From: Rhynochetos jubatus
Lineage: Eukaryota > Chordata > Aves > Eurypygiformes > Rhynochetidae
NCBI GenBank assembly: GCA_027574665.1
Contig: CM050673.1
Location: 10,091,420 to 10,155,419, forward strand
DNA: 64,000 nt
Direction of reading: 5' to 3'
The stretch's first letter is position 1. Each line of letters begins with the position of its first letter. The translations under genes and the position numbers were made by a program. Below are positions 1-64,000 of this stretch, in pieces. The notes under the pieces are model-generated. The model did not search any database. It had not been told where the DNA came from and was given only the letters and a program-made list of their open reading frames with translations.

Positions 1-372
1 AATCCACGGTCGGCAACTTCTAGGGTTAGGGTTAGGGTTAGGGTCCGGAGAACCAGAAAGCCCACAGCTCCACGGATAATTGGGATTGAAAGGCCTGCCA
101 AAAGAAGCACGACAGTGCACCGACATGGCTCCTTCACCTGCTTTCCTAGCCAGAACCCAGCGGGGGCCATGCGCAGAAACCGCGGCCGGCAACTTCTAGG
201 GTTAGGGTTAGGGTTAGGGTCCGGAGAACCAGAAAGCCCACAGCTCCAGGGATAATTGGGATTGCAAAGGCCTGCCAAGAGGAGCACGACACTGCACAGA
301 CATGGCTCCTTCCCCAGCTTTCCTAGCCAGAACCTAGGGGGGGCCGTGGCCGGAAACTGCGGTCGGCAACTT

Positions 373-384
373 CAAGGGTTAGGG
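373..384 (+). repeat. Single-TTAGGG tract of a 165-bp marker monomer (copy 1)
   Basis: The tract is reduced to CAAGGG plus one TTAGGG. The monomer is therefore 12 bp shorter, and the first hexamer is altered from CTAGGG. The same combined variant recurs at 3911-3922, 5314-5325 and 8309-8320, each time followed by the same TTGGTATTGAAAGG monomer, so the four are copies of one ancestral event. With only two GGG tracts this monomer cannot form a four-tract quadruplex from its own telomeric tract. Confidence 0.9.
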
Positions 385-3300
385 TCCGGAGAACCAGAAA
401 GCCCACAGCTCCACGGATAATTGGTATTGAAAGGCCTGCCAAAAGGAGCAGGACACTGCACAGACATGGCTCCTTCCCCAGCTTTCCTAGCCAGAACCCA
501 GGGGGGGCCGTGGTCGAAAACCGCGGTCGGCAACTTCTAGGGTTAGGGTTAGGGTTAGGGTCCGGAGAACCAGAAAGCCCACAGCTCCAGGGATAATTGG
601 GATTGCAAAGGCCTGCCCAAAGGAGCACGACACTGCACAGACATGGCTCCTTCCCCAGCTTTCCTAGCCAGAACCCCGGGCGGGCCGTGGCCGGAAACCG
701 CGGTCGGCAACTTCTAGGGTTAGGGTTAGGGTTAGGGTCCGGAGAACCAGAAAGCCCACAGCTCCAGGGATAATTGGGATTGCAAAGGCCTGCCAAGAGG
801 AGCACGACACTGCACAGACATGGCTCCTTCCCCAGCTTTCCTAGCCAGAACCCAGGGGGGGCCGTGGCCGGAAACCGCGGTCGGCAACTTCTAGGGTTAG
901 GGTTAGGTTTAGGGTTAGGGTCCGGAGAACCAGAAAGCCCACAGCTCCAGGGATAATTGGGGTTGCAAAGGCCTGCCAAGAGGAGCACGACACTGCACCG
1001 ACATGGCTCCTTCCCCTGCTTTCCTAGCCAGAACCCAGGGGGGGCCGTGGCCGGAAACCGCGGTCGGCAACTTCTAGGGTTAGGGTTAGGGTTAGGGTCC
1101 GGAGAACCAGAAAGCCCACAGCTCCAGGGATAATTGGGATTGCAAAGGCCTGCCAAGAGGAGCACGACACTGCACCGACATGGCTCCTTCCCCAGCTTTC
1201 CTAGCCAGAACCCAGGGGGGGCCGTGGCCGGAAACCGCGGTCGGCAACTTCTAGGGTTAGGGTTAGGGTTAGGGTCCGGAGAACCAGAAAGCCCACAGCT
1301 CCAGGGATAATTGGGATTGCAAAGGCCTGCCAAGAGGAGCACGACACTGCACAGTCATGGCTCCTTCCCCTGCTTTCCTAGCCAGAACCCAGGGGGGGCC
1401 GTGGCCGGAATCTACGGTCGGCAACTTCTAGGGTTAGGGTTAGGGTTAGGGTCCGGAGAACCAGAAAGCCCACAGCTCCAGGGATAATTGGGATTGCAAA
1501 GGCCTGCCAAGAGGAGCACGACACTGCACAGATATGGCTCCTTCCCCAGCTTTCCTAGCCAGAACCCGGGGGGGGCCGTGGCCGGAAACCGCGGTCGGCA
1601 ACTTCTAGGGTTAGGGTTAGGGTTAGTGTCCGGAGAACCAGAAAGCCCACAGCTCCAGGGATAATTGGGATTGCAAAGGCCTGCCAAGAGGAGCACGACA
1701 CTGCACCAACATGGCTCCTTCCCCAGCTTTCCTAGCCAGAACCCAGGGGGGGCCGTGTCCGGAATCCACGGTCGGCAACTTCTAGGGTTAGGGTTAGGGT
1801 TAGGGTCCGGAGAACCAGAAAGCCCACAGCTCCACGGATAATTGGGATTGCAAAGGCCTGCCAAGAGGAGCACGACACTGCACCGACATGGCTCCTTCCC
1901 CTGCTTTCCTAGCCAGAACCCAGGGGGGGCCGTGGCCGGAAACCGCGGTCGGCAACTTCTAGGGTTAGGGTTAGGGTTAGGGTCCGGAGAACCAGAAAGC
2001 CCACAGCTCCAGGGATAATTGGGATTGCAAAGGCCTGCCAAGAGGAGCACGACACTGCACAGACATGGCTCCTTCCCCTGCTTTCCTAGCCAGAACCCAG
2101 CGGGGGCCATGCGCAGAAACCGCGGCCGGCAACTTCTAGGGTTAGGGTTAGGGTTAGGGTCCGGAGAACCAGAAAGCCCACAGCTCCAGGGATAATTGGG
2201 ACTGCAAAGGCCTGCCAAGAGGAGCACGACACTGCACAGACATGGCTCCTTCCCCAGCTTTCCTAGCCAGAACCCAGGGGGGGCCGTGGCCGGAAACCGC
2301 GGTCGGCAACTTCTAGGGTTAGGGTTAGGGTTAGGGTCCGGAGAACCAGAAAGCCCACAGCTCCACGGATAATTGGGATTGAAAGGCCTGCCAAAAGGAG
2401 CACGACACTGCACCGACATGGCTCCTTCCCCTGCTTTCCTAGCCAGAACCCAGGGGGGGCCGTGGCCGGAAACTGCGGTCGGCAACTTCTAGGGTTAGGG
2501 TTAGGGTTAGGGTCCGGAGAGCCAGAAAGCACACAGCTCCAGGGATAATTGGGATTGCAAAGGCCTGCCAAGAGGAGCACGACACTGCACAGACATGGCT
2601 CCTTCCCCAGCTTTCCTAGCCAGAACCCAGGGGGGGCCGTGGCCGGAAACCGCGGTCGGCAACTTCTAGGGTTAGGGTTAGGTTTAGGGTTAGGGTCCGG
2701 AGAACCAGAAAGCCCACAGCTCCAGGGATAATTGGGGTTGCAAAGGCCTGCCAAGAGGAGCACGACACTGCACCGACATGGCTCCTTCCCCTGCTTTCCT
2801 AGCCAGAACCCAGGGGGGGCCGTGGCCGGAAACCGCGGTCGGCAACTTCTAGGGTTAGGGTTAGGGTTAGGGTCCGGAGAACCAGAAAGCCCACAGCTCC
2901 AGGGATAATTGGGATTGCAAAGGCCTGCCAAGAGGAGCACGACACTGCACCGACATGGCTCCTTCCCCAGCTTTCCTAGCCAGAACCCAGGGGGGGCCGT
3001 GGCCGGAATCCACGGTTGGTAACTTCTAGGGTTAGGGTTAGGGTTAGGGTCCGGAGAACCAGAAAGCCCACAGCTCCACGGATAATTGGGATTGCAAAGG
3101 CCTGCCAAGAGGAGCACGACACTGCACAGATATGGCTCCTTCCCCAGCTTTCCTAGCCAGAACCCGGGGGGGGCCGTGGCCGGAAACCGCGGTCGGCAAC
3201 TTCTAGGGTTAGGGTTAGGGTTAGTGTCCGGAGAACCAGAAAGCCCACAGCTCCAGGGATAATTGGGATTGCAAAGGCCTGCCAAGAGGAGCACGACACT

Positions 3301-3910
3301 GCACCGACATGGCTCCTTCCCCAGCTTTCCTAGCCAGAACCCAGGGGGGGCCGTGTCCGGAATCCACGGTCGGCAACTTCTAGGGTTAGGGTTAGGGTTA
3401 GGGTCCGGAGAACCAGAAAGCCCACAGCTCCAGGGATAATTGGGATTGCAAAGGCCTGCCAAGAGGAGCACGACACTGCACCGACATGGCTCCTTCCCCT
3501 GCTTTCCTAGCCAGAACCCAGGGGGGGCCGTGGCCGGAAACCGCGGTCGGCAACTTCTAGGGTTAGGGTTAGGGTTAGGGTCCGGAGAACCAGAAAGCCC
3601 ACAGCTCCAGGGATAATTGGGATTGCAAAGGCCTGCCAAGAGGAGCACGACACTGCACCGACATGGCTCCTTCCCCAGCTTTCCTAGCCAGAACCCAGCG
3701 GGGGCCATGCGCAGAAACCGCGGCCGGCAACTTCTAGGGTTAGGGTTAGGGTTAGGGTCCGGAGAACCAGAAAGCCCACAGCTCCAGGGATAATTGGGAT
3801 TGCAAAGGCCTGCCAAGAGGAGCACGACACTGCACAGACATGGCTCCTTCCCCAGCTTTCCTAGCCAGAACCTAGGGGGGGCCGTGGCCGGAAACTGCGG
3901 TCGGCAACTT

Positions 3911-3922
3911 CAAGGGTTAGGG
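3911..3922 (+). repeat. Single-TTAGGG marker tract (copy 2)
   Basis: Same CAAGGG-TTAGGG form and same flanking variants as the copy at 373, 3,538 bp downstream. It is followed by a block that resembles 331-900 and then diverges. Confidence 0.9.
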
Positions 3923-5313
3923 TCCGGAGAACCAGAAAGCCCACAGCTCCACGGATAATTGGTATTGAAAGGCCTGCCAAAAGGAGCAGGACACTGCACA
4001 GACATGGCTCCTTCCCCAGCTTTCCTAGCCAGAACCCAGGGGGGGCCGTGGTCGAAAACCGCGGTCGGCAACTTCTAGGGTTAGGGTTAGGGTTAGGGTC
4101 CGGAGAACCAGAAAGCCCACAGCTCCAGGGATAATTGGGATTGCAAAGGCCTGCCCAAAGGAGCACGACACTGCACAGACATGGCTCCTTCCCCTGCTTT
4201 CCTAGCCAGAACCCCGGGGGGGCCGTGGCCGGAAACCGCGGTCGGCAACTTCTAGGCTTAGGGTTAGGGTTAGGGTCCGGAGAACCAGAAAGCCCACAGC
4301 TCCAGGGATAATTGGGACTGCAAAGGCCTGCCAAGAGGAGCACGACACTGCACAGACATGGCTCCTTCCCCAGCTTTCCTAGCCAGAACCCAGGGGGGGC
4401 CGTGGCCGGAAACCGCGGTCGGCAACTTCTAGGGTTAGGGTTAGGGTTAGGGTCCGGAGAACCAGAAAGCCCACAGCTCCAGGGATAATTGGGATTGCAA
4501 AGGCCTGCCAAGAGGAGCACGACACTGCACCGACATGGCTCCTTCCCCAGCTTTCCTAGCCAGAACCCAGGGGGGGCCGTGGCCGGAATCCACGGTTGGT
4601 AACTTCTAGGGTTAGGGTTAGGGTTAGGGTCCGGAGAACCAGAAAGCCCACAGCTCCACGGATAATTGGGATTGCAAAGGCCTGCCAAGAGGAGCACGAC
4701 ACTGCACAGATATGGCTCCTTCCCCAGCTTTCCTAGCCAGAACCCGGGGGGGGCCGTGGCCGGAAACCGCGGTCGGCAACTTCTAGGGTTAGGGTTAGGG
4801 TTAGTGTCCGGAGAACCAGAAAGCCCACAGCTCCAGGGATAATTGGGATTGCAAAGGCCTGCCAAGAGGAGCACGACACTGCACCGACATGGCTCCTTCC
4901 CCAGCTTTCCTAGCCAGAACCCAGGGGGGGCCGTGTCCGGAATCCACGGTCGGCAACTTCTAGGGTTAGGGTTAGGGTTAGGGTCCGGAGAACCAGAAAG
5001 CCCACAGCTCCAGGGATAATTGGGATTGCAAAGGCCTGCCAAGAGGAGCACGACACTGCACCGACATGGCTCCTTCCCCTGCTTTCCTAGCCAGAACCCA
5101 GCGGGGGCCATGCGCAGAAACCGCGGCCGGCAACTTCTAGGGTTAGGGTTAGGGTTAGGGTCCGGAGAACCAGAAAGCCCACAGCTCCAGGGATAATTGG
5201 GATTGCAAAGGCCTGCCAAGAGGAGCACGACACTGCACAGACATGGCTCCTTCCCCAGCTTTCCTAGCCAGAACCTAGGGGGGGCCGTGGCCGGAAACTG
5301 CGGTCGGCAACTT

Positions 5314-5325
5314 CAAGGGTTAGGG
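5314..5325 (+). repeat. Single-TTAGGG marker tract (copy 3)
   Basis: Same marker, 1,403 bp after copy 2. The block following it (about 5264-6004) is closely matched by the one following copy 4 (about 8259-8999), an offset of 2,995 bp. Confidence 0.9.
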
Positions 5326-8308
5326 TCCGGAGAACCAGAAAGCCCACAGCTCCACGGATAATTGGTATTGAAAGGCCTGCCAAAAGGAGCAGGACACTGC
5401 ACAGACATGGCTCCTTCCCCAGCTTTCCTAGCCAGAACCCAGGGGGGGCCGTGGTCGAAAACCGCGGTCGGCAACTTCTAGGGTTAGGGTTAGGGTTAGG
5501 GTCCGGAGAACCAGAAAGCCCACAGCTCCAGGGATAATTGGGATTGCAAAGGCCTGCCCAAAGGAGCACGACACTGCACAGACATGGCTCCTTCCCCAGC
5601 TTTCCTAGCCAGAACCCCGGGGGGGCCGTGGCCGGAAACCGTGGTCGGCAACTTCTAGGCTTAGGGTTAGGGTTAGGGTCCGGAGAACCAGAAAGCCCAC
5701 AGCTCCAGGGATAATTGGGACTGCAAAGGCCTGCCAAGAGGAGCACGACACTGCACAGACATGGCTCCTTCCCCAGCTTTCCTAGCCAGAACCCAGGGGC
5801 GGCCGTGGCCGGAAACCGCGGTCGGCAACTTCTAGGGTTAGGGTTAGGGTTAGGGTCCGGAGAACCAGAAAGCCCACAGCTCCACGGATAATTGGGATTG
5901 AAAGGCCTGCCAAAAGGAGCACGACACTGCACCGACATGGCTCCTTCCCCTGCTTTCCTAGCCAGAACCCAGGGGGGGCCGTGGCCGGAAACTGCGGTCG
6001 GCAACTTCTAGGGTTAGGGTTAGGGTTAGGGTCCGGAGAACCAGAAAGCACACAGCTCCAGGGATAATTGGGATTGCAAAGGCCTGCCAAGAGGAGCACG
6101 ACACTGCACAGACATGGCTCCTTCCCCAGCTTTCCTAGCCAGAACCCAGGGGGGGCCGTGGCCGGAAACCGCGGTCGGCAACTTCTAGGGTTAGGGTTAG
6201 GTTTAGGGTTAGGGTCCGGAGAACCAGAAAGCCCACAGCTCCAGGGATAATTGGGGTTGCAAAGGCCTGCCAAGAGGAGCACGACACTGCACCGACATGG
6301 CTCCTTCCCCTGCTTTCCTAGCCAGAACCCAGGGGGGGCCGTGGCCGGAAACCGCGGTCGGCAACTTCTAGGGTTAGGGTTAGGGTTAGGGTCCGGAGAA
6401 CCAGAAAGCCCACAGCTCCAGGGATAATTGGGATTGCAAAGGCCTGCCAAGAGGAGCACGACACTGCACAGTCATGGCTCCTTCCCCTGCTTTCCTAGCC
6501 AGAACCCAGGGGGGGCCTTGGCAGGAATCTACGGTCGGCAACTTCTAGGGTTAGGGTTAGGGTTAGGGTCCGGAGAACCAGAAAGCCCACAGCTCCAGGG
6601 ATAATTGGGATTGCAAAGGCCTGCCAAGAGGAGCACGACACTGCACAGATATGGCTCCTTCCCCAGCTTTCCTAGCCAGAACCCGGGGGGGGCCGTGGCC
6701 GGAAACCGCGGTCGGCAACTTCTAGGGTTAGGGTTAGGGTTAGTGTCCGGAGAACCAGAAAGCCCACAGCTCCAGGGATAATTGGGATTGCAAAGGCCTG
6801 CCAAGAGGAGCACGACACTGCACCGACATGGCTCCTTCCCCAGCTTTCCTAGCCAGAACCCAGGGGGGGCCGTGTCCGGAATCCACGGTCGGCAACTTCT
6901 AGGGTTAGGGTTAGGGTTAGGGTCCGGAGAACCAGAAAGCCCACAGCTCCAGGGATAATTGGGATTGCAAAGGCCTGCCAAGAGGAGCACGACACTGCAC
7001 CGACATGGCTCCTTCCCCTGCTTTCCTAGCCAGAACCCAGGGGGGGCCGTGGCCGGAAACCGCGGTCGGCAACTTCTAGGGTTAGGGTTAGGGTTAGGGT
7101 CCGGAGAACCAGAAAGCCCACAGCTCCAGGGATAATTGGGATTGCAAAGGCCTGCCAAGAGGAGCACGACACTACACAGACATGGCTCCTTCCCCTGCTT
7201 TCCTAGCCAGAAACCAGCGGGGGCCGTGGCCGGAAACCGCGGTCGGCAACTTCTAGGGTTAGGGTTAGGGTTAGGGTCCGGAGAACCAGAAAGCCCACAG
7301 CTCCAGGGATAATTGGGATTGCAAAGGCCTGCCAAGAGGAGCACGACACTGCACCGACATGGCTCCTTCCCCTGCTTTCCTAGCCAGAACCCAGGGGGGG
7401 CCGTGGCCGGAAACCGCGGTCGGCAACTTCTAGGGTTAGGGTTAGGGTCCTGAGAACCAGAAAGCCCACAGCTCCAGGGATAATTGGGATTGCAAAGGCC
7501 TGCCAAGAGGAGCACGACACTGCACCGACATGGCTCCTTCCCCTGCTTTCCTAGCCAGAACCCAGGGGGGGCCGTGGCCGGAAACCGTGGTCGGCAACTT
7601 CTAGGGTTAGGGTTAGGGTTAGGGTCCGGAGAACCAGAAAGCCCACAGCTCCAGGGATAATTGGGATTGCAAAGGCCTGCCAAGAGGAGCACGACACTGC
7701 ACCGACATGGCTCCTTCCCCAGCTTTCCTAGCCAGAACCCAGGGGGGGCCGTGGCCAGAAACCGCGGTCGGCAACTTCTAGGGTTAGGGTTAGGGTTAGG
7801 GTCCGGAGAACCAGAAAGCCCACAGCTCCAGGGATAATTGGGATTGCAAAGGCCTGCCAAGAGGAGCACGACACTGCACAGACATGGCTCCTTCCCCTGC
7901 TTTCCTAGCCAGAACCCAGGGGGGGCCATGCCCAGAAACCGCGGTCGGCAACTTCTAGGGTTAGGGTTAGGGTTAGGGTCCGGAGAACCAGAAAGCCCAC
8001 AGCTCCAGGGATAATTGGGATTGCAAAGGCCTGCCAAGAGGAGCACGACACTGCACAGACATGGCTCCTTCCCCAGCTTTCCTAGCCAGAACCCAGGGGG
8101 GGCCGTGGCCGGAATCCACGGTCGGCAACTTCTAGGCTTAGGGTTAGGGTTAGGGTCCGGAGAACCAGAAAGCCCACAGCTCCAGGGATAATTGGGATTG
8201 CAAAGGCCTGCCAAGAGGAGCACGACACTGCACAGACATGGCTCCTTCCCCAGCTTTCCTAGCCAGAACCTAGGGGGGGCCGTGGCCGGAAACTGCGGTC
8301 GGCAACTT

Positions 8309-8320
8309 CAAGGGTTAGGG
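8309..8320 (+). repeat. Single-TTAGGG marker tract (copy 4)
   Basis: The last occurrence of this marker in the window. The variant is absent from the remaining 55 kb, so the block type it marks is confined to the left end. Confidence 0.9.
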
Positions 8321-10699
8321 TCCGGAGAACCAGAAAGCCCACAGCTCCACGGATAATTGGTATTGAAAGGCCTGCCAAAAGGAGCAGGACACTGCACAGA
8401 CATGGCTCCTTCCCCAGCTTTCCTAGCCAGAACCCAGGGGGGGCCGTGGTCGAAAACCGCGGTCGGCAACTTCTAGGGTTAGGGTTAGGGTTAGGGTCCG
8501 GAGAACCAGAAAGCCCACAGCTCCAGGGATAATTGGGATTGCAAAGGCCTGCCCAAAGGAGCACGACACTGCACAGACATGGCTCCTTCCCCAGCTTTCC
8601 TAGCCAGAACCCCGGGGGGGCCGTGGCCGGAAACCGCGGTCGGCAACTTCTAGGGTTAGGGTTAGGGTTAGGGTCCGGAGAACCAGAAAGCCCACAGCTC
8701 CAGGGATAATTGGGACTGCAAAGGCCTGCCAAGAGGAGCACGACACTGCACAGACATGGCTCCTTCCCCAGCTTTCCTAGCCAGAACCCAGGGGGGGCCG
8801 TGGCCGGAAACCGCGGTCGGCAACTTCTAGGGTTAGGGTTAGGGTTAGGGTCCGGAGAACCAGAAAGCCCACAGCTCCACGGATAATTGGGATTGAAAGG
8901 CCTGCCAAAAGGAGCACGACACTGCACCGACATGGCTCCTTCCCCTGCTTTCCTAGCCAGAACCCAGGGGGGGCCGTGGCCGGAAACTGCGGTCGGCAAC
9001 TTCTAGGGTTAGGGTTAGGGTTAGGGTCCGGAGAGCCAGAAAGCACACAGCTCCAGGGATAATTGGGATTGCAAAGGCCTGCCAAGAGGAGCACGACACT
9101 GCACAGACATGGCTCCTTCCCCAGCTTTCCTAGCCAGAAACCAGGGGGGGCCGTGGCCGGAAACCGCGGTCGGCAACTTCTAGGGTTAGGGTTAGGTTTA
9201 GGGTTAGGGTCCGGAGAACCAGAAAGCCCACAGCTCCAGGGATAATTGGGATTGCAAAGGCCTGCCAAGAGGAGCACGACACTGCACAGTCATGGCTCCT
9301 TCCCCTGCTTTCCTAGCCAGAACCCAGGGGGGGCCGTGGCAGGAATCTACGGTCGGCAACTTCTAGGGTTAGGGTTAGGGTTAGGGTCCGGAGAACCAGA
9401 AAGCCCACAGCTCCAGGGATAATTGGGATTGCAAAGGCCTGCCAAGAGGAGCACGACACTGCACAGATATGGCTCCTTCCCCAGCTTTCCTAGCCAGAAC
9501 CCGGGGGGGGCCGTGGCCGGAAACCGCGGTCGGCAACTTCTAGGGTTAGGGTTAGGGTTAGTGTCCGGAGAACCAGAAAGCCCACAGCTCCAGGGATAAT
9601 TGGGATTGCAAAGGCCTGCCAAGAGGAGCACGACACTGCACCGACATGGCTCCTTCCCCAGCTTTCCTAGCCAGAACCCAGGGGGGGCCGTGTCCGGAAT
9701 CCACGGTCGGCAACTTCTAGGGTTAGGGTTAGGGTTAGGGTCCGGAGAACCAGAAAGCCCACAGCTCCAGGGATAATTGGGATTGCAAAGGCCTGCCAAG
9801 AGGAGCACGACACTGCACCGACATGGCTCCTTCCCCTGCTTTCCTAGCCAGAACCCAGGGGGGGCCGTGGCCGGAAACCGCGGTCGGCAACTTCTAGGGT
9901 TAGGGTTAGGGTTAGGGTCCGGAGAACCAGAAAGCCCACAGCTCCAGGGATAATTGGGATTGCAAAGGCCTGCCAAGAGGAGCACGACACTACACAGACA
10001 TGGCTCCTTCCCCTGCTTTCCTAGCCAGAAACCAGCGGGGGCCGTGGCCGGAAACCGCGGTCGGCAACTTCTAGGGTTAGGGTTAGGGTTAGGGTCCGGA
10101 GAACCAGAAAGCCCACAGCTCCAGGGATAATTGGGATTGCAAAGGCCTGCCAAGAGGAGCACGACACTGCACCGACATGGCTCCTTCCCCTGCTTTCCTA
10201 GCCAGAACCCAGGGGGGGCCGTGGCCGGAAACCGCGGTCGGCAACTTCTAGGGTTAGGGTTAGGGTTAGGGTCCTGAGAACCAGAAAGCCCACAGCTCCA
10301 GGGATAATTGGGATTGCAAAGGCCTGCCAAGAGGAGCACGACACTGCACCGACATGGCTCCTTCCCCTGCTTTCCTAGCCAGAACCCAGGGGGGGCCGTG
10401 GCCGGAAACCGTGGTCGGCAACTTCTAGGGTTAGGGTTAGGGTTAGGGTCCGGAGAACCAGAAAGCCCACAGCTCCAGGGATAATTGGGATTGCAAAGGC
10501 CTGCCAAGAGGAGCACGACACTGCACCGACATGGCTCCTTCCCCAGCTTTCCTAGCCAGAACCCAGGGGGGGCCGTGGCCAGAAACCGCGGTCGGCAACT
10601 TCTAGGGTTAGGGTTAGGGTTAGGGTCCGGAGAACCAGAAAGCCCACAGCTCCAGGGATAATTGGGATTGCAAAGGCCTGCCAAGAGGAGCACGACACT

Positions 10700-41430: not shown

Positions 41431-42000
41431 GCGGTCGGCAACTTCTAGGGTTAGGGTTAGGGTTAGGGTCCGGAGAACCAGAAAGCCCACAGCTCCAGGG
41501 ATAATTGGGATTGCAAAGGCCTGCCAAGAGGAGCACGACACTGCACAGACATGGCTCCTTCCCCTGCTTTCCTAGCCAGAACCCAGGGGGGGCCGTGGCC
41601 GGAAACCGCGGTCGGCAACTTCTAGGGTTAGGGTTAGGGTTAGGGTCCGGAGAACCAGATAGCCCACAGCTCCAGAGATAATTGGGATTGCAAAGGCCTG
41701 CCAAGAGGAGCACGACACTGCACAGACATGGCTCCTTCCCCTGCTTTCCTAGCCAGAACCCAGGGGGGGCCGTGGCCGGAAACCGCGGTCGGCAACTTCT
41801 AGGGTTAGGGTTAGGGTTAGGGTCCGGAGAACCAGAAAGCCCACAGCTCCAGGGATAATTGGGATTGCAAAGGCCTGCCAAGAGGAGCACGACACTGCAC
41901 AGACATGGCTCCTTCCCCAGCTTTCCTAGCCAGAACCCAGGGGGGGCCGTGGCCGGAAACCGCGGTCGGCAACTTCTAGGGTTAGGGTTAGGGTTAGGGT

Positions 42001-42177
42001 CCGGAGAACCAGAAAGCCCACAGCTCCAGGGATAATTGGGATTGCAAAGGCCTGCCAAGAGGAGCACGACACTGCACAGACATGGCTCCTTCCCCAGCTT
42101 TCCTAGCCAGAACCCAGGGGGGGCCGTGGCCGGAAACCGCGGTCGGCAACTTCTAGGGTTAGGGTTAGGGTTAGGGT
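42001..42177 (+). repeat. Reference monomer (177 bp)
   Basis: This copy matches the commonest base at nearly every variable site. Order within the unit: CCGGAGAACC at 1-10; GGGATAATTGGGATTG at 29-44; the StuI-type palindrome AGGCCT at 48-53; GAGGAGCACGACACTGC at 59-75; CATGGCTCCTTCCCC at 81-95; a run of seven G at 117-123 after CCCA; the 8-bp palindrome ACCGCGGT at 136-143; then the telomeric tract at 153-176. By hand count 106 of 177 bases are G or C and there are seven CpG dinucleotides. The + strand is G-rich in the right part of the unit. The length is close to that of nucleosome-scale satellites such as the 171-bp alpha satellite, but I see no sequence likeness to alpha satellite. Confidence 0.95.
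42153..42176 (+). other. Interstitial telomeric tract, representative of every monomer
   Basis: CTAGGG is followed by three exact TTAGGG hexamers and then by the unique-looking TCCGG that opens the next monomer. This arrangement recurs in almost every monomer of the window. It supplies four GGG tracts with TTA loops, the minimum for an intramolecular telomeric G-quadruplex. It also contains three overlapping matches to the duplex TRF1-type site YTAGGGTTR. Whether shelterin proteins bind here is inference. Tracts with one, two or four TTAGGG account for the 165-, 171- and 183-bp monomers. Confidence 0.95.
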
Positions 42178-44099
42178 CCGGAGAACCAGAAAGCCCACAG
42201 CTCCAGGGATAATTGGGATTGCAAAGGCCTGCCAAGAGGAGCACGACACTGCACAGACATGGCTCCTTCCCCTGCTTTCCTAGCCAGAACCCGGGGGGGG
42301 CCGTGGCCGGAAACCACGGTCAGCAACTTCTAGGGTTAGGGTTAGGGTTAGGGTCCGGAGAGCCAGAAAGCCCACAGCTCCAGGGATAATTGGGATTGCA
42401 AAGGCCTGCCAAGAGGAGCACGACACTGCACAGACATGGCTCCTTCCCCAGCTTTCCTAGCCAGAACCCGGGGGGGGGCGTGGCCGGAAACCGCGGTCGG
42501 CAACTTCTAGGGTTAGGGTTAGGGTTAGGGTTAGGGTCCGGAGAACCAGAAAGCCCACAGCTCCAGGGATAATTGGGATTGCAAAGGCCTGCCAAGAGGA
42601 GCACGACACTGCACCGACATGGCTCCTTCCTCTGCTTTCCTAGCCAGAACCCCGGGGGGGCCGTGGCCGGAAACCGCGGTCGGCAACTTCTAGGGTTAGT
42701 GTTAGGGTTAGGGTCCGGAGAACCAGAAAGCCCACAGCTCCAGGGATAATTGGGATTGCAAAGGCCTGCCAAGAGGAGCACGACACTGCACAGACATGGC
42801 TCCTTCCCCAGCTTTCCTAGCCAGAACCCAGGGGGGGCCGTGGCCGGAAACCGCGGTCGGCAACTTCTAGGGTTAGGGTTAGGGTTAGGGTCCGGAGAAC
42901 CAGAAAGCCCACAGCTCCAGGGATAATTGGGATTGCAAAGGCCTGCCAAGAGGAGCACGACACTGCACAGACATGGCTCCTTCCCCAGCTTTCCTAGCCA
43001 GAACCCAGGGGGGGCCGTGGCCGGAAACCGCGGTCGGCAACTTCTAGGGTTAGGGTTAGGGTTAGGGTCCGGAGAACCAGAAAGCCCACAGCTCCAGGGA
43101 TAATTGGGATTGCAAAGGCCTGCCAAGAGGAGCACGACACTGCACAGACATGGCTCCTTCCCCTGCTTTCCTAGCCAGAACCCGGGGGGGGCCGTGGCCG
43201 GAAACCACGGTCAGCAACTTCTAGGGTTAGGGTTAGGGTTAGGGTCCGGAGAGCCAGAAAGCCCACAGCTCCAGGGATAATTGGGATTGCAAAGGCCTGC
43301 CAAGAGGAGCACGACACTGCACAGACATGGCTCCTTCCCCAGCTTTCCTAGCCAGAACCCGGGGGGGGGCGTGGCCGGAAACCGCGGTCGGCAACTTCTA
43401 GGGTTAGGGTTAGGGTTAGGGTTAGGGTCCGGAGAACCAGAAAGCCCACAGCTCCAGGGATAATTGGGATTGCAAAGGCCTGCCAAGAGGAGCACGACAC
43501 TGCACAGACATGGCTCCTTCCCCTGCTTTCCTAGCCAGAACCCCGGGGGGGCCGTGGCCGGAAACCGCGGTCGGCAACTTCTAGGGTTAGTGTTAGGGTT
43601 AGGGTCCGGAGAACCAGAAAGCCCACAGCTCCAGGGATAATTGGGATTGCAAAGGCCTGCCAAGAGGAGCACGACACTGCACAGACATGGCTCCTTCCCC
43701 AGCTTTCCTAGCCAGAACCCAGGGGGGGCCGTGGCCGGAAACCGCGGTCGGCAACTTCTAGGGTTAGGGTTAGGGTTAGGGTCCGGAGAACCAGAAAGCC
43801 CACAGCTCCAGGGATAATTGGGATTGCAAAGGCCTGCCAAGAGGAGCACGACACTGCACAGACATGGCTCCTTCCCCTGCTTTCCTAGCCAGAACCCAGG
43901 GTGGGCCGTGGCCGGAAACCGCGGTCGGCAACTTCTAGGGTTAGGGTTAGGGTTAGGGTCCGGAGAACCAGAAAGCCCACAGCTCCAGGGATAATTGGGA
44001 TTGCAAAGGCCTGCCAAGAGGAGCACGACACTGCACAGACATGGCTCCTTCCCCAGCTTTCCTAGCCAGAACCCAGGGGGGGCCGTGGCCGAAAACCGC

Positions 44100-45300: not shown

Positions 45301-45399
45301 TCCCCAGCTTTCCTAGCCAGAACCCAGGGGGGGCCGTGGCCGGAAACCGCGGTCGGCAACTTCTAGGGTTAGGGTTAGGGTTAGGGTCCGGAGAACCAG

Positions 45400-48300
45400 A
45401 AAGCCCACAGCTCCAGGGATAATTGGGATTGCAAAGGCCTGCCAAGAGGAGCACGACACTGCACAGACATGGCTCCTTCCCCTGCTTTCCTAGCCAGAAC
45501 CCAGGGGGGGCCGTGGCCGGAAACCGCGGTCGGCAACTTCTAGGGTTAGGGTTAGGGTTAGGGTCCGGAGAACCAGAAAGCCCACAGCTCCAGGGATAAT
45601 TGGGATTGCAAAGGCCTGCCAAGAGGAGCACGACACTGCACAGACATGGCTCCTTCCCCAGCTTTCCTAGCCAGAACCCAGGGGGGGCCGTGGCCGGAAA
45701 CCGCGGTCGGCAACTTCTAGGGTTAGGGTTAGGGTTAGGGTCCGGAGAACCAGAAAGCCCACAGCTCCAGGGATAATTGGGATTGCAAAGGCCTGCCAAG
45801 AGGAGCACGACACTGCACAGACATGGCTCCTTCCCCTGCTTTCCTAGCCAGAACCCGGGGGGGGCCGTGGCCGGAAACCACGGTCAGCAACTTCTAGGGT
45901 TAGGGTTAGGGTTAGGGTCCGGAGAACCAGAAAGCCCACAGCTCCAGGGATAATTGGGATTGCAAAGGCCTGCCAAGAGGAGCACGACACTGCACAGACA
46001 TGGCTCCTTCCCCAGCTTTCCTAGCCAGAACCCAGGGGGGGCCGTGGCCGGAAACCGCGGTCGGCAACTTCTAGGGTTAGGGTTAGGGTTAGGGTCCGGA
46101 GAACCAGAAAGCCCACAGCTCCAGGGATAATTGGGATTGCAAAGGCCTGCCAAGAGGAGCACGACACTGCACAGACATGGCTCCTTCCCCAGCTTTCCTA
46201 GCCAGAACCCGGGGGGGGCCGTGGCCGGAAACCGCGGTCGGCAACTTCTAGGGTTAGGGTTAGGGTTAGGGTTAGGGTCCGGAGAACCAGAAAGCCCACA
46301 GCTCCAGGGATAATTGGGATTGCAAAGGCCTGCCAAGAGGAGCACGACACTGCACAGACATGGCTCCTTCCCCAGCTTTCCTAGCCAGAACCCAGGGGGG
46401 GCCGTGGCCGAAAACCGCGGTCGGCAACTTCTAGGGTTAGGGTTAGGGTTAGGGTCCGGAGAACCAGAAAGCCCACAGCTCCAGGGATAATTGGGATTGC
46501 AAAGGCCTGCCAAGAGGAGCACGACACTGCACCGACATGGCTCCTTCCCCTGCTTTCCTAGCCAGAACCCCGGGGGGGCCGTGGCCGGAAACCGCGGTCG
46601 GCAACTTCTAGGGTTAGTGTTAGGGTTAGGGTTAGGGTCCGGAGAACCAGAAAGCCCACAGCTCCAGGGATAATTGGGATTGCAAAGGCCTGCCAAGAGG
46701 AGCACGACACTGCACAGACATGGCTCCTTCCCCAGCTTTCCTAGCCAGAACCCAGGGGGGGCCGTGGCCGGAAACCGCGGTCGGCAACTTCTAGGGTTAG
46801 GGTTAGGGTTAGGGTCCGGAGAACCAGAAAGCCCACAGCTCCAGGGATAATTGGGATTGCAAAGGCCTGCCAAGAGGAGCACGACACTGCACCGACATGG
46901 CTCCTTCCCCTGCTTTCCTAGCCAGAACCCAGGGGGCGGCCGTGGCCGGAAACCACGGTCGGCAAATTCTAGGGTTAGGGTTAGGGTTAGGGTCCGGAGA
47001 ACCAGAAAGCCCACAGCTCCAGGGATAATTGGGATTGCAAAGGCCTGCCAAGAGGAGCACGACACTGCACAGACATGGCTCCTTCCCCTGCTTTCCTAGC
47101 CAGAACCCCGGGGGGGCCGTGGCCGGAAACCGCGGTCGGCAACTTCTAGGGTTAGGGTTAGGGTTAGGGTCCGGAGAACCAGAAAGCCCACAGCTCCAGG
47201 GATAATTGGGATTGCAAAGGCCTGCCAAGAGGAGCACGACACTGCACAGACATGGCTCCTTCCCCAGCTTTCCTAGCCAGAACCCAGGGGGGGCCGTGGC
47301 CGGAAACCGCGGTCGGCAACTTCTAGGGTTAGGGTTAGGGTTAGGGTCCGGAGAACCAGAAAGCCCACAGCTCCAGGGATAATTGGGATTGCAAAGGCCT
47401 GCCAAGAGGAGCACGACACTGCACAGACATGGCTCCTTCCCCAGCTTTCCTAGCCAGAACCCAGGGGGGGCCGTGGCCGGAAACCGCGGTCGGCAACTTC
47501 TAGGGTTAGGGTTAGGGTTAGGGTCCGGAGAACCAGAAAGCCCACAGCTCCAGGGATAATTGGGATTGCAAAGGCCTGCCAAGAGGAGCACGACACTGCA
47601 CAGACATGGCTCCTTCCCCTGCTTTCCTAGCCAGAACCCGGGGGGGGCCGTGGCCGGAAACCACGGTCAGCAACTTCTAGGGTTAGGGTTAGGGTTAGGG
47701 TCCGGAGAACCAGAAAGCCCACAGCTCCAGGGATAATTGGGATTGCAAAGGCCTGCCAAGAGGAGCACGACACTGCACAGACATGGCTCCTTCCCCAGCT
47801 TTCCTAGCCAGAACCCAGGGGGGGCCGTGGCCGGAAACCGCGGTCGGCAACTTCTAGGGTTAGGGTTAGGGTTAGGGTCCGGAGAACCAGAAAGCCCACA
47901 GCTCCAGGGATAATTGGGATTGCAAAGGCCTGCCAAGAGGAGCACGACACTGCACAGACATGGCTCCTTCCCCAGCTTTCCTAGCCAGAACCCGGGGGGG
48001 GCCGTGGCCGGAAACCGCGGTCGGCAACTTCTAGGGTTAGGGTTAGGGTTAGGGTTAGGGTCCGGAGAACCAGAAAGCCCACAGCTCCAGGGATAATTGG
48101 GATTGCAAAGGCCTGCCAAGAGGAGCACGACACTGCACAGACATGGCTCCTTCCCCAGCTTTCCTAGCCAGAACCCAGGGGGGGCCGTGGCCGAAAACCG
48201 CGGTCGGCAACTTCTAGGGTTAGGGTTAGGGTTAGGGTCCGGAGAACCAGAAAGCCCACAGCTCCAGGGATAATTGGGATTGCAAAGGCCTGCCAAGAGG

Positions 48301-52800: not shown

Positions 52801-52806
52801 TTCCTA

Positions 52807-56410: not shown

Positions 56411-58620
56411 AGGGGGCGGCCGTGGCCGGAAACCACGGTCGGCAACTTCTAGGGTTAGGGTTAGGGTTAGGGTCCGGAGAACCAGAAAGCCCACAGCTCC
56501 AGGGATAATTGGGATTGCAAAGGCCTGCCAAGAGGAGCACGACACTGCACAGACATGGTTCCTTCCCCTGCTTTCCTAGCCAGAACCCCGGGGGGGCCGT
56601 GGCCGGAAACCGCGGTCGGCAACTTCTAGGGTTAGGGTTAGGGTTAGGGTCCGGAGAACCAGAAATCCCACAGCTCCAGGGATAATTGGGATTGCAAAGG
56701 CCTGCCAAGAGGAGCCCGACACTGTACCGACATGGCTCCTTCCCCAGCTTTCCTAGCCAGAACCCAGGGGGGGCCGTGGCCGAAAACCGCGGTCGGCAAC
56801 TTCTAGGGTTAGGGTTAGGGTTAGGGTCCGGAGAACCAGAAAGCCCACAGCTCCAGGGATAATTGGGATTGCAAAGGCCTGCCAAGAGGAGCACGACACT
56901 GCACAGACATGGCTCCTTCCCCAGCTTTCCTAGCCAGAACCCAGGGGGGGCCGTGGCCGGAAACCGCGGTCGGCAACTTCTAGGGTTAGGGTTAGGGTTA
57001 GGGTCCGGAGAACCAGAAAGCCCACAGCTCCAGGGATAATTGGGATTGCAAAGGCCTGCCAAGAGGAGCACGACACTGCACAGACATGGCTCCTTCCCCA
57101 GCTTTCCTAGCCAGAACCCAGGGGGGGCCGTGGCCGGAAACCGCGGTCGGCAACTTCTAGGGTTAGGGTTAGGGTTAGGGTCCGGAGAACCAGAAAGCCC
57201 ACAGCTCCAGGGATAATTGGGATTGCAAAGGCCTGCCAAGAGGAGCACGACACTGCACAGACATGGCTCCTTCCCCTGCTTTCCTAGCCAGAACCCGGGG
57301 GGGGCCGTGGCCGGAAACCACGGTCAGCAACTTCTAGGGTTAGGGTTAGAGTTAGGGTCCGGAGAGCCAGAAAGCCCACAGCTCCAGGGATAATTGGGAT
57401 TGCAAAGGCCTGCCAAGAGGAGCACGACACTGCACAGACATGGCTCCTTCCCCAGCTTTCCTAGCCAGAACCCGGGGGGGGCCGTGGCCGGAAACCGCGG
57501 TCGGCAACTTCTAGGGTTAGGGTTAGGGTTAGGGTTAGGGTCCGGAGAACCAGAAAGCCCACAGCTCCAGGGATAATTGGGATTGCAAAGGCCTGCCAAG
57601 AGGAGCACGACACTGCACAGACATGGCTCCTTCCCCAGCTTTCCTAGCCAGAACCCGGGGGGGGCCGTGGCCGGAAACCGCGGTCGGCAACTTCTAGGGT
57701 TAGTGTTAGGGTTAGGGTTAGGGTCCGGAGAACCAGAAAGCCCACAGCTCCAGGGATAATTGGGATTGCAAAGGCCTGCCAAGAGGAGCACGACACTGCA
57801 CAGACATGGCTCCTTCCCCAGCTTTCCTAGCCAGAACCCAGGGGGGGCCGTGGCCGGAAACCGCGGTCGGCAACTTCTAGGGTTAGGGTTAGGGTTAGGG
57901 TTAGGGTCCGGAGAACCAGAAAGCCCACAGCTCCAGGGATAATTGGGATTGCAAAGGCCTGCCAAGAGGAGCACGACACTGCACAGACATGGCTCCTTCC
58001 CCAGCTTTCCTAGCCAGAACCCAGGGGGGGCCGTGGCCGGAAACCGCGCTCGGCAACTTCTAGGGTTAGGGTTAGGGTTAGGGTCCGGAGAACCAGAAAG
58101 CCCACAGCTCCAGGGATAATTGGGATTGCAAAGGCCTGCCAAGAGGAGCACGACACTGCACCGACATGGCTCCTTCCCCTGATTTCCTAGCCAGAACCCA
58201 GGGGGCGGCCGTGGCCGGAAACCACGGTCGGCAACTTCTAGGGTTAGGGTTAGGGTTAGGGTCCGGAGAACCAGAAAGCCCACAGCTCCAGGGATAATTG
58301 GGATTGCAAAGGCCTGCCAAGAGGAGCACGACACTGCACAGACATGGCTCCTTCCCCTGCTTTCCTAGCCAGAACCCCGGGGGGGCCGTGGCCGGAAACC
58401 GCGGTCGGCAACTTCTAGGGTTAGGGTTAGGGTTAGGGTCCGGAGAACCAGAAAGCCCACAGCTCCAGGGATAATTGGGATTGCAAAGGCCTGCCAAGAG
58501 GAGCCCGACACTGCACCGACATGGCTCCTTCCCCAGCTTTCCTAGCCAGAACCCAGGGGGGGCCGTGGCCGAAAACCGCGGTCGGCAACTTCTAGGGTTA
58601 GGGTTAGGGTTAGGGTTAGG

Positions 58621-58700
58621 GTCCGGAGAACCAGAAAGCCCACAGCTCCAGGTATGATTTGATTGCAAAGCCTGCCAAGAGGAGCACGACACTGCACAGA
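58621..58700 (+). repeat. Degenerate monomer segment with small deletions
   Basis: Where other units read CCAGGGATAATTGGGATTG this one reads CCAGGTATGATTTGATTG, and the next motif is AAAGCCTGCC instead of AAAGGCCTGCC. Several substitutions and small deletions therefore lie within about 30 bp, unusual in an array where most monomers differ by isolated single bases. A related but less altered copy, with GGGATGATTGGG and AAAGCCTGCC, lies at about 60,796-60,825. Confidence 0.85.
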
Positions 58701-61700
58701 CATGGCTCCTTCCCCAGCTTTCCTAGCCAGAACCCAGGGGGGGCCGTGGCCGGAAACCGCGGTCGGCAACTTCTAGGGTTAGGGTTAGGGTTAGGGTCCG
58801 GAGAACCAGAAAGCCCACAGCTCCAGGGATAATTGGGATTGCAAAGGCCTGCCAAGAGGAGCACGACACTGCACAGACATGGCTCCTTCCCCTGCTTTCC
58901 TAGCCAGAACCCGGGGGGGGCCGTGGCCGGAAACCACGGTCAGCAACTTCTAGGGTTAGGGTTAGGGTTAGGGTCCGGAGAACCAGAAAGCCCACAGCTC
59001 CAGGGATAATTGGGATTGCAAAGGCCTGCCAAGAGGAGCACGACACTGCACAGACATGGCTCCTTCCCCAGCTTTCCTAGCCAGAACCCGGGGGGGGCCG
59101 TGGCCGGAAACCGCGGTCGGCAACTTCTAGGGTTAGGGTTAGGGTTAGGGTTAGGGTCCGGAGAACCAGAAAGCCCACAGCTCCAGGGATAATTGGGATT
59201 GCAAAGGCCTGCCAAGAGGAGCACGACACTGCACAGACATGGCTCCTTCCCCAGCTTTCCTAGCCAGAACCCAGGGGGGGCCGTGGCCGAAAACCGCGGT
59301 CGGCAACTTCTAGGGTTAGGGTTAGGGTTAGGGTCCGGAGAACCAGAAAGCCCACAGCTCCAGGGATAATTGGGATTGCAAAGGCCTGCCAAGAGGAGCA
59401 CGACACTGCACCGACATGGCTCCTTCCCCTGCTTTCCTAGCCAGAACCCCGGGGGGGCCGTGGCCGGAAACCGCGGTCGGCAACTTCTAGGGTTAGTGTT
59501 AGGGTTAGGGTTAGGGTCCGGAGAACCAGAAAGCCCACAGCTCCAGGGATAATTGGGATTGCAAAGGCCTGCCAAGAGGAGCACGACACTGCACAGACAT
59601 GGCTCCTTCTCCAGCTTTCCTAGCCAGAACCCAGGGGGGGCCGTGGCCGGAAACCGCGGTCGGCAACTTCTAGGGTTAGGGTTAGGGTTAGGGTTAGGGT
59701 CCGGAGAACCAGAAAGCCCACAGCTCCAGGGATAATTGGGATTGCAAAGGCCTGCCAAGAGGAGCACGACACTGCACAGACATGGCTCCTTCCCCAGCTT
59801 TCCTAGCCAGAACCCAGGGGGGGCCGTGGCCGGAAACCGCGGTCGGCAACTTCTAGGGTTAGGGTTAGGGTTAGGGTCCGGAGAACCAGAAAGCCCACAG
59901 CTCCAGGGATAATTGGGATTGCAAAGGCCTGCCAAGAGGAGCACGACACTGCACCGACATGGCTCCTTCCCCTGATTTCCTAGCCAGAACCCAGGGGGCG
60001 GCCGTGGCCGGAAACCACGGTCGGCAACTTCTAGGGTTAGGGTTAGGGTTAGGGTCCGGAGAACCAGAAAGCCCACAGCTCCAGGGATAATTGGGATTGC
60101 AAAGGCCTGCCAAGAGGAGCACGACACTGCACAGACATGGCTCCTTCCCCTGCTTTCCTAGCCAGAACCCCGGGGGGGCCGTGGCCGGAAACCGCGGTCG
60201 GCAACTTCTAGGGTTAGGGTTAGGGTTAGGGTCCGGAGAACCAGAAAGCCCACAGCTCCAGGGATAATTGGGATTGCAAAGGCCTGCCAAGAGGAGCCCG
60301 ACACTGCACCGACATGGCTCCTTCCCCAGCTTTCCTAGCCAGAACCCAGGGGGGGCCGTGGCCGAAAACCGCGGTCGGCAACTTCTAGGGTTAGGGTTAG
60401 GGTTAGGGTCCGGAGAACCAGAAAGCCCACAGCTCCAGGGATAATTGGGATTGCAAAGGCCTGCCAAAAGGAGCACGACACTGCACAGACATGGCTCCTT
60501 CCCCTGCTTTCCTAGCCAGAACCCCGGGGGGGCCGTGGCCGGAAACCGCGGTCGGCAACTTCTAGGGTTAGGGTTAGGTTTAGGGTCCGGAGAACCAGAA
60601 AGCCCACAGCTCCAGGGATAATTGGGATTGCAAAGGCCTGCCAAGAGGAGCACGACACTGCACAGACATGGCTCCTTCTCCAGCTTTCCTAGCCAGAACC
60701 CAGGGGGGGCCGTGGCCGGAAACCGCGGTCGGCAACTTCTAGGGTTAGGGTTAGGGTTAGGGTTAGGGTCCGGAGAACCAGAAAGCCCACAGCTCCAGGG
60801 ATGATTGGGATTGCAAAGCCTGCCAAGAGGAGCACGACACTGCACAGACATGGCTCCTTCCCCAGCTTTCCTAGCCAGAACCCAGGGGGGGCCGTGGCCG
60901 GAAACCGCGGTCGGCAACTTCTAGGGTTAGGGTTAGGGTTAGGGTCCGGAGAACCAGAAAGCCCACAGCTCCAGGGATAATTGGGATTGCAAAGGCCTGC
61001 CAAGAGGAGCACGACACTGCACAGACATGGCTCCTTCCCCTGCTTTCCTAGCCAGAACCCGGGGGGGGCCGTGGCCGGAAACCGCGGTCGGCAACTTCTA
61101 GGGTTAGTGTTAGGGTTAGGGTTAGGGTCCGGAGAACCAGAAAGCCCACAGCTCCAGGGATAATTGGGATTGCAAAGGCCTGCCAAGAGGAGCACGACAC
61201 TGCACAGACATGGCTCCTTCCCCAGCTTTCCTAGCCAGAACCCAGGGGGGGCCGTGGCCGGAAACCGCGGTCGGCAACTTCTAGGGTTAGGGTTAGGGTT
61301 AGGGTCCGGAGAACCAGAAAGCCCACAGCTCCAGGGATAATTGGGATTGCAAAGGCCTGCCAAGAGGAGCACGACACTGCACCGACATGGCTCCTTCCCC
61401 TGCTTTCCTAGCCAGAACCCAGGGGGCGGCCGTGGCCGGAAACCACGGTCGGCAACTTCTAGGGTTAGGGTTAGGGTTAGGGTCCGGAGAACCAGAAAGC
61501 CCACAGCTCCAGGGATAATTGGGATTGCAAAGGCCTGCCAAGAGGAGCACGACACTGCACAGACATGGCTCCTTCCCCTGCTTTCCTAGCCAGAACCCCG
61601 GGGGGGCCGTGGCCGGAAACCGCGGTCGGCAACTTCTAGGGTTAGGGTTAGGGTTAGGGTCCGGAGAACCAGAAAGCCCACAGCTCCAGGGATAATTGGG

Positions 61701-62059
61701 ATTGCAAAGGCCTGCCAAGAGGAGCCCGACACTGCACCGACATGACTCCTTCCCCAGCTTTCCTAGCCAGAACCCAGGGGGGGCCGTGGCCGAAAACTGC
61801 GGTCGGCAACTTCTAGGGTTAGGGTTAGGGTTAGGGTCCGGAGAACCAGAAAGCCCACAGCTCCAGGGATAATTGGGATTGCAAAGGCCTGCCAAAAGGA
61901 GCACGACACTGCACAGACATGGCTCCTTCCCCTGCTTTCCTAGCCAGAACCCAGGGGGGGCCATGGCCGGAAACCGCGGTCGGCAACTTCTAGGGTTAGG
62001 GTTAGGTTTAGGGTCCGGAGAACCAGAAAGCCCACAGCTCCAGGGATAATTGGGATTGC

Positions 62060-62085
62060 AAAGGCCTGCCAAGGAGCACGACACT
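62060..62085 (+). repeat. Monomer with 3-bp deletion
   Basis: The usual GCCAAGAGGAGCACG reads GCCAAGGAGCACG, three bases shorter than the usual GCCAAGAGGAGCACG (one base shorter when written as GCCAAGAGGAGC without one AGA unit repeat). This is a private change; I saw no second copy. Confidence 0.7.
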
Positions 62086-64000
62086 GCACAGACATGGCTC
62101 CTTCCCCAGCTTTCCTAGCCAGAACCCAGGGGGGGCCGTGGCCTGAAACCGCGGTCGGCAACTTCTAGGGTTAGGGTTAGGGTTAGGGTTAGGGTCCGGA
62201 GAACCAGAAAGCCCACAGCTCCAGGGATGATTGGGATTGCAAAGGCCTGCCAAGAGGAGCACGACACTGCACAGACATGGCTCCTTACCCTACTTTCCTA
62301 GCCAGAACCCAGGGGGGGCCGTGGCCGAAAACCGCGGTCGGCAACTTCTAGGGTTAGGGTTAGGGTTAGGGTCCGGAGAACCAGAAAGCCCACAGCTCCA
62401 GGGATAATTGGGATTGCAAAGGCCTGCCAAGAGGAGCATGACACTGCACAGACATGGCTCCTTCCCCAGCTTTCCTAGCCAGAACCCAGGGGGGGCCGTG
62501 GCCGGAAACCGCGGTCGGCAACTTCTAGGGTTAGGGTTAGGGTTAGGGTCCGGAGAACCAGAAAGCCCACAGCTCCAGGGATAATTGGGATTGCAAAGGC
62601 CTGCCAAGAGGAGCACGACACTGCACAGACATGGCTCCTTCCCCAGCTTTCCTAGCCAGAACCCCAGGGGGGCCGTGGCCGGAAACCGCGGTCGGCAACT
62701 TCTAGGGTTAGGGTTAGGGTTAGGGTCCGGAGAACCAGAAAGCCCACAGCTCCAGGGATAATTGGGATTGCAAAGGCCTGCCAAGAGGAGCACGACACTG
62801 CACAGACATGCCTCCTTCCCCTGCTTTCCTATCCAGAACCCAGGGGGGGCCGTGGCCGGAAACCGCGGTCGGCCACTTCTAGGGTTAGGGTTAGGGTTAG
62901 GGTCCGGAGAACCAGAAAGCCCACAGCTCCAGGGATAATTGGGATTGCAAAGGCCTGCCAAGAGGAGCACGACACTGCACAGACATGGCTCCTTCCCCTG
63001 CTTTCCTAGCCAGAACCCAGGGGGGGCCGTGGCCGGAAACCGCGGTCGGCAACTTCTAGGGTTAGGGTTAGGGTTAGGGTCCGGAGAACCAGAAAGCCCA
63101 CAGCTCCAGGGATAATTGGGATTGCAAAGGCCTGCCAAGAGGAGCACGACACTGCACAGACATGGCTCCTTCCCCAGCTTTCCTAGCCAGAACCCAGGGG
63201 GGGCCGTGGCCGGAAACCGCGGTTGGCACCTTCTAGGGTTAGGGTTAGGGTTAGGGTCCGGAGAACCAGAAAGCCCACAGCTCCAGGGATAATTGGGATT
63301 GCAAAGGCCTGCCAAGAGGAGCACGACACTGCACAGACATGGCTCCTTCCCCTGCTTTCCTAGCCAGAACATAGGGGGGGCCGTGGCCGGAAACCGCGGT
63401 CGGCCACTTCTAGGGTTAGGGTTAGGGTTAGGGTCCGGAGAACCAGAAAGCCCACAGCTCCAGGGATAATTGGGATTGCAAAGGCCTGCCAAGAGGAGCA
63501 CGACACTGCACAGACATGGCTCCTTCCCCTGCTTTCCTAACCAGAACCCAGGGGGGGGCCGTGGCCGGAAACCGCGGTCGGCCACTTCTAGGGTTAGGGT
63601 TAGGGTTAGGGTCCGGAGAACCAGAAAGCCCACAGCTCCAGGGATAATTGGGATTGCAAAGGCCTGCCAAGAGGAGCACGACACTGCACAGACATGGCTC
63701 CTTCCCCTGCTTTCCTAGCCAGAACCCAGGGGGGGCCGTGGCCGGAAACTGCGGTCGGCAACTTCTAGGGTTAGGGTTAGGGTTAGGGTCCGGAGAACCA
63801 GAAAGCCCACAGCTCCAGGGATAATTGGGATTGCAAAGGCCTGCCAAGAGGAGCACGACACTGCACAGACATGGCTCCTTCCCCAGCTTTCCTAGCCAGA
63901 ACCCGGGGGGGGCCGTGGCCGGAAACCGCGGTCGGCAACTTCTAGGGTTAGGGTTAGGGTTAGGGTTAGGGTCCGGAGAACCAGAAAGCCCACAGCTCCA

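Follow-up and report, generated by a model that had tools for sequence, protein, structure and literature searches.

The question raised by this locus is whether a satellite that carries telomeric words in each of its units belongs to the chromosome ends or to the centromeres. The window, that is the whole stretch of 64,000 nucleotides that was analysed, lies at 10,091,420-10,155,419 on contig CM050673.1 (here C28) of the Rhynochetos jubatus assembly of 1,331,379,947 bases in 148 contigs, and consists of a single, unbroken head-to-tail satellite array on the + strand. Judged from the sequence, the array is probably a satellite of the centromeric or pericentromeric regions in small and middle-sized bird chromosomes, and on C28 it most likely underlies or flanks the kinetochore. 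A terminal or internal cluster on each large carrier contig, a size of about half a Mb on C28 and more than 2 Mb on C8, a layering from core to diverged edge on C28 and a different satellite beyond it together give the look of a centromeric satellite.

The repeat unit and its telomeric tract

Tandem Repeats Finder reports a sole array, at 7-64000, with a period of 177, 360.4 copies and 96% matches, and phasing by wrap-around alignment locates 361 unit starts and, between them, 360 whole units, all between 165 and 184 bp, in agreement with the sequence-only reading, which had described about 360 head-to-tail units of 177 bp. The length is 177 bp in 271 units, 183 bp in 49, 176 bp in 16 and 178 bp in nine, with other lengths in the remaining 15. 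No foreign insertion was found in the window by this phasing, as none of the 360 units is longer than 200 bp or shorter than 150 bp; the earlier statement of 64 kb without insertion thus holds, and the array extends well past the window. The GC content is 59-60% along the full length, and the 360 units comprise 190 distinct sequences with a mean pairwise divergence of 3.8%. The features to which the text refers are the following, YTAGGGTTR being a motif that we take to be the TRF half-site.

1..64000, + strand: satellite array of the 177-bp family (named 177A), 360 whole units by Tandem Repeats Finder and phasing, part of the larger C28 array
42000..42176, + strand: reference unit in the phase of this analysis, offset by one base from the unit 42001-42177 of the sequence-only reading
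42041..42061, + strand: 21-bp block ATTGCAAAGGCCTGCCAAGAG, identical in the consensuses of the families 177A, 176B and 176C and largely retained in a diverged island on C2
42153..42176, + strand: telomeric tract of the reference unit, CTAGGG TTAGGG TTAGGG TTAGGG, with three overlapping half-sites of the presumed motif
42508..42537, + strand: example of an expanded tract, CTAGGG and four TTAGGG, in a 183-bp unit
373..384, + strand: contracted tract CAAGGG TTAGGG, shown for a 165-bp unit, one of four such units in the window

The 177-bp unit is composed of a 24-bp telomeric tract and a 153-bp partner sequence, which bears out the proposal that a short telomeric tract was joined to another sequence and then amplified. 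TTAGGG is found 1072 times on the + strand and not once on the - strand of the window, and (TTAGGG)3 is observed 352 times against none in 100 dinucleotide shuffles. The predicted pattern of one CTAGGG and normally three TTAGGG per unit was recovered as well: of the 360 tracts, 285 have four YTAGGG words, 35 have three, 33 have five, three have two and four have one, and by TTAGGG words 289 have three, 33 have four, 32 have two and six have one, so that at least two YTAGGG are present in 356 units and at least one TTAGGG in all 360. The number of intact words varies between units, with five in 33 and fewer than four in 42, and the longest TTAGGG runs in the window have four words. The block ATTGCAAAGGCCTGCCAAGAG in the partner sequence may be a putative protein-binding site of its own.

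Exact local repeats of up to 1,705 bp indicate recent duplication. The longest is found at 45484 and 47267, with a spacing of 1,783 bp or about ten units, and 42% of the window is covered by exact repeats of at least 500 bp, with the highest density in 32-56 kb. On the - strand, stop-free stretches reach 1,822 codons antisense through the array. A coding reading was dropped, with no search made for relatives: one consensus frame of the - strand has no stop, and with most unit lengths being multiples of three an open consensus frame remains open by itself, the long stretches being most likely a by-product of this.

Clusters, families and polarity in the genome

A 27-mer typical of 177A and 176C occurs 104,602 times genome-wide with at most two mismatches, and a 28-mer of 176B 34,043 times, which gives 138,645 units or, at 177 bp each, about 24.5 Mb and 1.8% of the assembly. 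In overlapping counts, (TTAGGG)3 is found 70,758 times genome-wide and (TTAGGG)8 only 7,599 times, and most short telomeric words of the assembly sit outside long telomeric runs. A terminal telomeric run is present at one of the 20 contig starts that were read, indicating that many true telomeres seem to be unassembled and that word counts are no gauge of living telomeres.

Cluster positions were sampled via rare single-base variants, among the matches listed. Clusters with several hits are located on 12 contigs above 10 Mb, five of them terminal and seven internal at 0.25-0.67 along the contig, and the span between the outermost sampled hits ranges from 4 kb to 2.25 Mb.

Internal clusters, outermost sampled hits (Mb):
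C8, 25.87-28.12
C12, 12.31-14.08
C13, 8.44-9.81
C14, 16.11-17.50
C17, 14.39-15.90
C18, 9.010-9.015
C24, 3.607-3.614
Terminal clusters, outermost sampled hits (Mb):
C20, 0.006-0.67
C21, 17.27-17.93
C22, 0-0.35
C23, 14.16-14.25
C28, 9.75-10.29

In addition, C34, a contig of 5.8 Mb, carries seven hits within 3.12-3.43 Mb, and C16 and C27 have one hit each among the matches listed. The 191-bp samples of C122 (L104) and C23 (L105) are identical, and C122 is possibly a duplicate of the C23 locus.

The C28 contig has 10,305,424 bases and carries the array near one end, with an extent of 0.54-0.58 Mb, starting between 9.71 and 9.75 Mb and ending near 10.292 Mb by sampled points. The left edge at 9.75-9.835 Mb consists of the 176-bp family 176B, the core at sampled points from 9.86 to 10.241 Mb of 177A, interrupted by one 3-kb island of 176B, and the right edge again of 176B up to 10.292 Mb, followed by other sequence to the contig end. 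This distal part comprises 13 kb with only small diverged satellite pieces; pieces past the main array lie in reverse orientation near the end of the contig (L035:8829-9211, about 10.304 Mb). At sampled points on the inner side, a 92-bp satellite is present at 9.60-9.61 and 9.70-9.71 Mb, with related sequence at 9.0 and 9.5 Mb.

At least three unit families can be distinguished, with the hexamer slots CTAGGG TTAGGG TTAGGG TTAGGG in 177A, TTAGGG TTAGGG CTAGGG TTAGCG in 176B and TTAGGG TTACGC TTAGGG TTAGCG in 176C. By reading, 177A is located on C13, C14, C23, C24, C28 and C122, 176B on C22 and C28, and 176C on C8 (by eye), C12, C17 and C18; by a rare variant, 176B is also found on C34, C55, C116, C117, C119, C133 and C144. 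Exact 176B words appear on C20, the first contig to have them, and on C21, where they were seen on the inner side only. On C20 they form two stretches, at 6-20 kb and at 669-674 kb, between which the 177A/176C class has its words at 176-400 kb, and this layering looks like that of C28, where a 176-bp family flanks the core. One sampled unit of the 176C type on C8 has four TTAGGG and one TTAGCG, indicating that telomeric words are also gained. The island at 43.99 Mb on C2 contains about ten diverged units with approximately 79% identity to 177A, and since the tract is present in most of them the union of tract and partner should be old.

On all 12 contigs above 10 Mb with multi-hit clusters the listed hits are on a single strand, and the TTAGGG strand runs towards the nearer contig end (two-sided p 0.0005), a post hoc rule built on sampled positions. 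Direct reading gave the TTAGGG strand on C8, C12, C13, C14, C17, C18, C22, C23, C24, C28, C122 and C125; on C16, C20, C21, C27, C34 and C55 it was deduced from the strand of the diagnostic word. C16 and C27, with their one hit each, and C34, with a marginal position of 0.54-0.60, were added after the rule had been formed and fit it. Among three measured contigs below 3 Mb, C122 fits, with the possible duplication of C23 to be kept in mind, and C125 and C55 do not; C55 fitted with the hits at 0.31-0.40 Mb and misfits with the full span of 0.31-0.71 of 0.91 Mb. Isolated copies behave as by chance, fitting in two of five cases (C2 island once, C4 twice, C6, and C8 at 18.5 Mb) or three of six when C22 at 6.1 Mb is included.

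Centromere, chromosome end, fusion or artefact

From their positions we infer that the sampled clusters are centromeres. Seven of the 12 clusters are internal, at 0.25-0.67 of the contig, a centromere-like distribution that is less readily explained by a subtelomeric satellite than by a centromeric or pericentromeric one, and the location given by the sequence-only reading, telomeric or subtelomeric, is accordingly not supported. A satellite copied between chromosome ends, as that reading proposed, would account for the clusters on C20, C21, C22, C23 and C28, which lie less than about 0.8 Mb from a contig end and whose TTAGGG strand points to the end in a telomere-like manner. It is nevertheless quite improbable, as the seven other contigs above 10 Mb have their cluster deep inside and none at their ends among the matches listed, and as 13 kb of other sequence separate the C28 array from the contig end. 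The telomeric words found inside contigs could also be the remnant of a chromosome fusion, a heterochromatic interstitial telomeric block, but the window has runs of at most four TTAGGG within a 177-bp unit and no long (TTAGGG)n block, related units are found also in terminal arrays, and the listed hits are one-stranded on each large contig whereas a head-to-head fusion predicts both strands, so that this origin is very improbable. An interstitial telomeric sequence derived from telomerase RNA found no support in window positions 1-10000, where no Rfam family reached its gathering score. It is general knowledge that long satellites are often misassembled, but an assembly artefact is extremely improbable, given that the 360 units include 190 distinct sequences and that layering is seen on separate contigs.

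A centromeric or pericentromeric satellite also agrees with the complete chicken genome, where the acrocentric centromeres measure 0.2-0.8 Mb and the acrocentric, mostly small chromosomes share the CNM repeat (PMC9974502, in the part cited here). The size and terminal place of the C28 array are like these and support the centromere reading. The likeness covers terminal arrays of 0.2-0.8 Mb on mostly small chromosomes, telomeric DNA, and a short arm of conserved sequence, and chicken CENP-A cores often encompass (TTAGGG)n, the core being (TTAGGG)n embedded in CNM arrays in seven chromosomes; the chicken telomeric DNA forms a separate (TTAGGG)n block among 41-bp CNM repeats, however, whereas here the tract is inside each 177-bp unit (same part of PMC9974502). 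The CNM repeat itself was rejected as the identity of the array, since the period in the window is 177 and not 41 bp.

Several observations weigh against a centromeric satellite. No clear higher-order repeat is present in the window, where the mean identity over lags 1-40 spans 0.9613-0.9677 with no lag standing out, and the CENP-B-box core has no match on either strand of the window. This box is not known from birds and is not required for an active centromere array. Higher-order repeats are common in such arrays, though likewise not required, and chicken CNM arrays often have them. Telomere fluorescence in situ hybridization in birds mostly gives terminal signals only (PMC9693754, part cited), and interstitial telomere signals were absent in two nightingales (PMC8687609, part cited). 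The single cluster seen on each of the 12 contigs above 10 Mb, as an active centromere array would have, comes from the sampled variants and the matches listed only, so that second clusters per contig are possible, and there are isolated, distant extra hits on C8 at 18.5 Mb and C22 at 6.1 Mb. On C1-C7 the exact 27-mers are confined to five isolated sites (two on C2, two on C4 and one on C6), indicating that the satellite is not required for centromeres in general. The identity of 176B samples to their consensus is 0.950 in the left outer part versus 0.980-0.985 in the inner part, and on the right declines from 0.963 to 0.868, but the consensus was derived from one left-side sample (L040) and hence favours the left, which weakens this measure of edge divergence. 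Weak local higher-order structure does exist on C28: lag 10 is slightly raised in the right half of the window, and in the C28 samples L025, L026 and L043 the score for periods of 714-886 bp is a little higher than that for 177.

As to the origin of the arrays, one unit of about nucleosome-repeat length would long ago have acquired a short telomeric segment, after which whole units including the tract would have been multiplied and homogenised, probably via unequal exchange. Expansion would have proceeded in layers, leaving 176-bp units at the edges and purer 177-bp units in the central part of the array, and we infer that the 177-bp layer is younger than the 176-bp edges.

The telomeric tract and related satellites

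The tract might be functional: each unit would offer a pair of TRF-type half-sites spaced by 12 bp, through which telomere proteins would be brought to the centromere region, and the arm-linked polarity would be connected to this. The half-sites at tract offsets 0 and 12, in the form YTAGGGTTA, are kept in the consensuses of 177A, 176B and 176C, the changes being elsewhere or T to C at the Y position, and at least two half-sites are present in 354 of the 360 window units, with fewer than two in the other six. The arrays may thus hold a reserve of telomere-protein sites, as the sequence-only reading suggested. Among the 11 units counted in the old C2 island, four keep both offsets and seven lack the pair spaced by 12 bp, two having no half-site, three a single one, and two a pair only 6 bp apart. 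The minor-variant frequency, obtained from about 716 units of 177A, 455 of 176B (all from C28) and 119 of 176C, is in this order of families 0.53, 0.36 and 0.19% at the 18 half-site positions. The six remaining positions of the tract have 0.66, 3.12 and 1.54%, and the partner sequence has 1.72, 3.37 and 3.29%. When a mask of the 18 positions is slid round the unit, the tract has the second lowest variation of 176 offsets in 176B and the lowest of 176 in 176C, but only rank 40 of 177 in 177A. With CpG columns removed, the ranks become 56/177, 6/176 and 4/176 for 177A, 176B and 176C, and the remaining tract positions vary almost as little as the half-sites (0.39 versus 0.36% in 176B, 0.42 versus 0.19% in 176C), while the difference between families at the mask positions ranks 31/177. 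Strong selection on the whole tract was rejected, as the consensuses of 177A and 176C differ at about four of 24 tract positions, similar to the rest of the unit.

The pattern was found post hoc, and a functional tract is unlikely. Low mutability and homogenisation may explain the conservation of the half-sites, which is a lead only, and it is only suggested that the retained half-sites might recruit TRF-type proteins. Decidedly unlikely is the wider proposal of a landing pad for telomere proteins built into the bird centromere, with two spaced TRF half-sites per unit of nucleosome length, arrays polarised to the short arm on the large carrier contigs, and centromere and telomere identity sharing a DNA element that would make each array directional. 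If the arrays are centromeres, several unit families with two or three half-sites on differently shaped chromosomes of one genome would serve as a natural experiment, with replicates, on whether the telomeric DNA of bird centromeres has any effect, and the polarity would be a simple handle on the relation of acrocentric and bi-armed chromosomes that share the same satellite.

Satellite monomers with TTAGGG clusters are reportedly present in the chaffinch (Fringilla coelebs), by the title of Liangouzov et al. 2002, and a centromeric tandem repeat (FCP) of the same bird is said to be described in Saifitdinova et al. 2001, also by title. The two are said to be one repeat with a monomer near 500 bp. 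Compared by description only, both this and the present array are bird satellites with short TTAGGG clusters inside a longer monomer, but the chaffinch monomer is reportedly near 500 bp versus 177 bp here. The window is a long head-to-tail array with a short TTAGGG cluster in all 360 units, and satellites of this kind, with telomeric words within a longer monomer, are already known in birds, where the TTAGGG motif sometimes forms part of a larger satellite (PMC7348932, part cited, with Liangouzov et al. 2002 on the chaffinch among its references for this). Literature searches for a 177-bp telomeric satellite, or for satellites named by 177 or 176, found no bird satellite of such length. VchSat01-179 of the southern lapwing is similar by description in being centromeric, with 179 bp and 52.6% GC, but is located on all chromosomes, and the cited part of its report makes no mention of a telomeric tract (PMC10887557). 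In the bat satellite CpeSat05-72 telomeric repeats are part of the unit, which is located in pericentromeric heterochromatin, but the unit has 72 bp and the host is a mammal (PMC12467311, part cited). The unit has no match among phages, plasmids, IMG/VR, or bacterial and archaeal genome contigs, as expected for a vertebrate satellite and uninformative on its relatives.

The 92-bp satellite that adjoins the array on C28 (L015, L016, L037 and L038; 9.0-9.71 Mb) has a relative with about 74-76% identity at the beginning of contig C2 (L046). On the short-arm side of the C28 array a 22-bp GC-rich minisatellite (L035:235-1809) is 89% identical to the start of C20 (L057), which suggests a short-arm sequence shared by the two contigs. 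The small contigs are GC-rich, and many of the 150 scored matches to the beta-keratin family are clustered on small contigs, which we take to be a mark of birds. Large beta-keratin clusters are located at C1:0.96-1.17, C28:1.85-1.96, C32:2.79-3.16 and C35:1.38-1.63 Mb, with partly alternating strands on C28 and C35.

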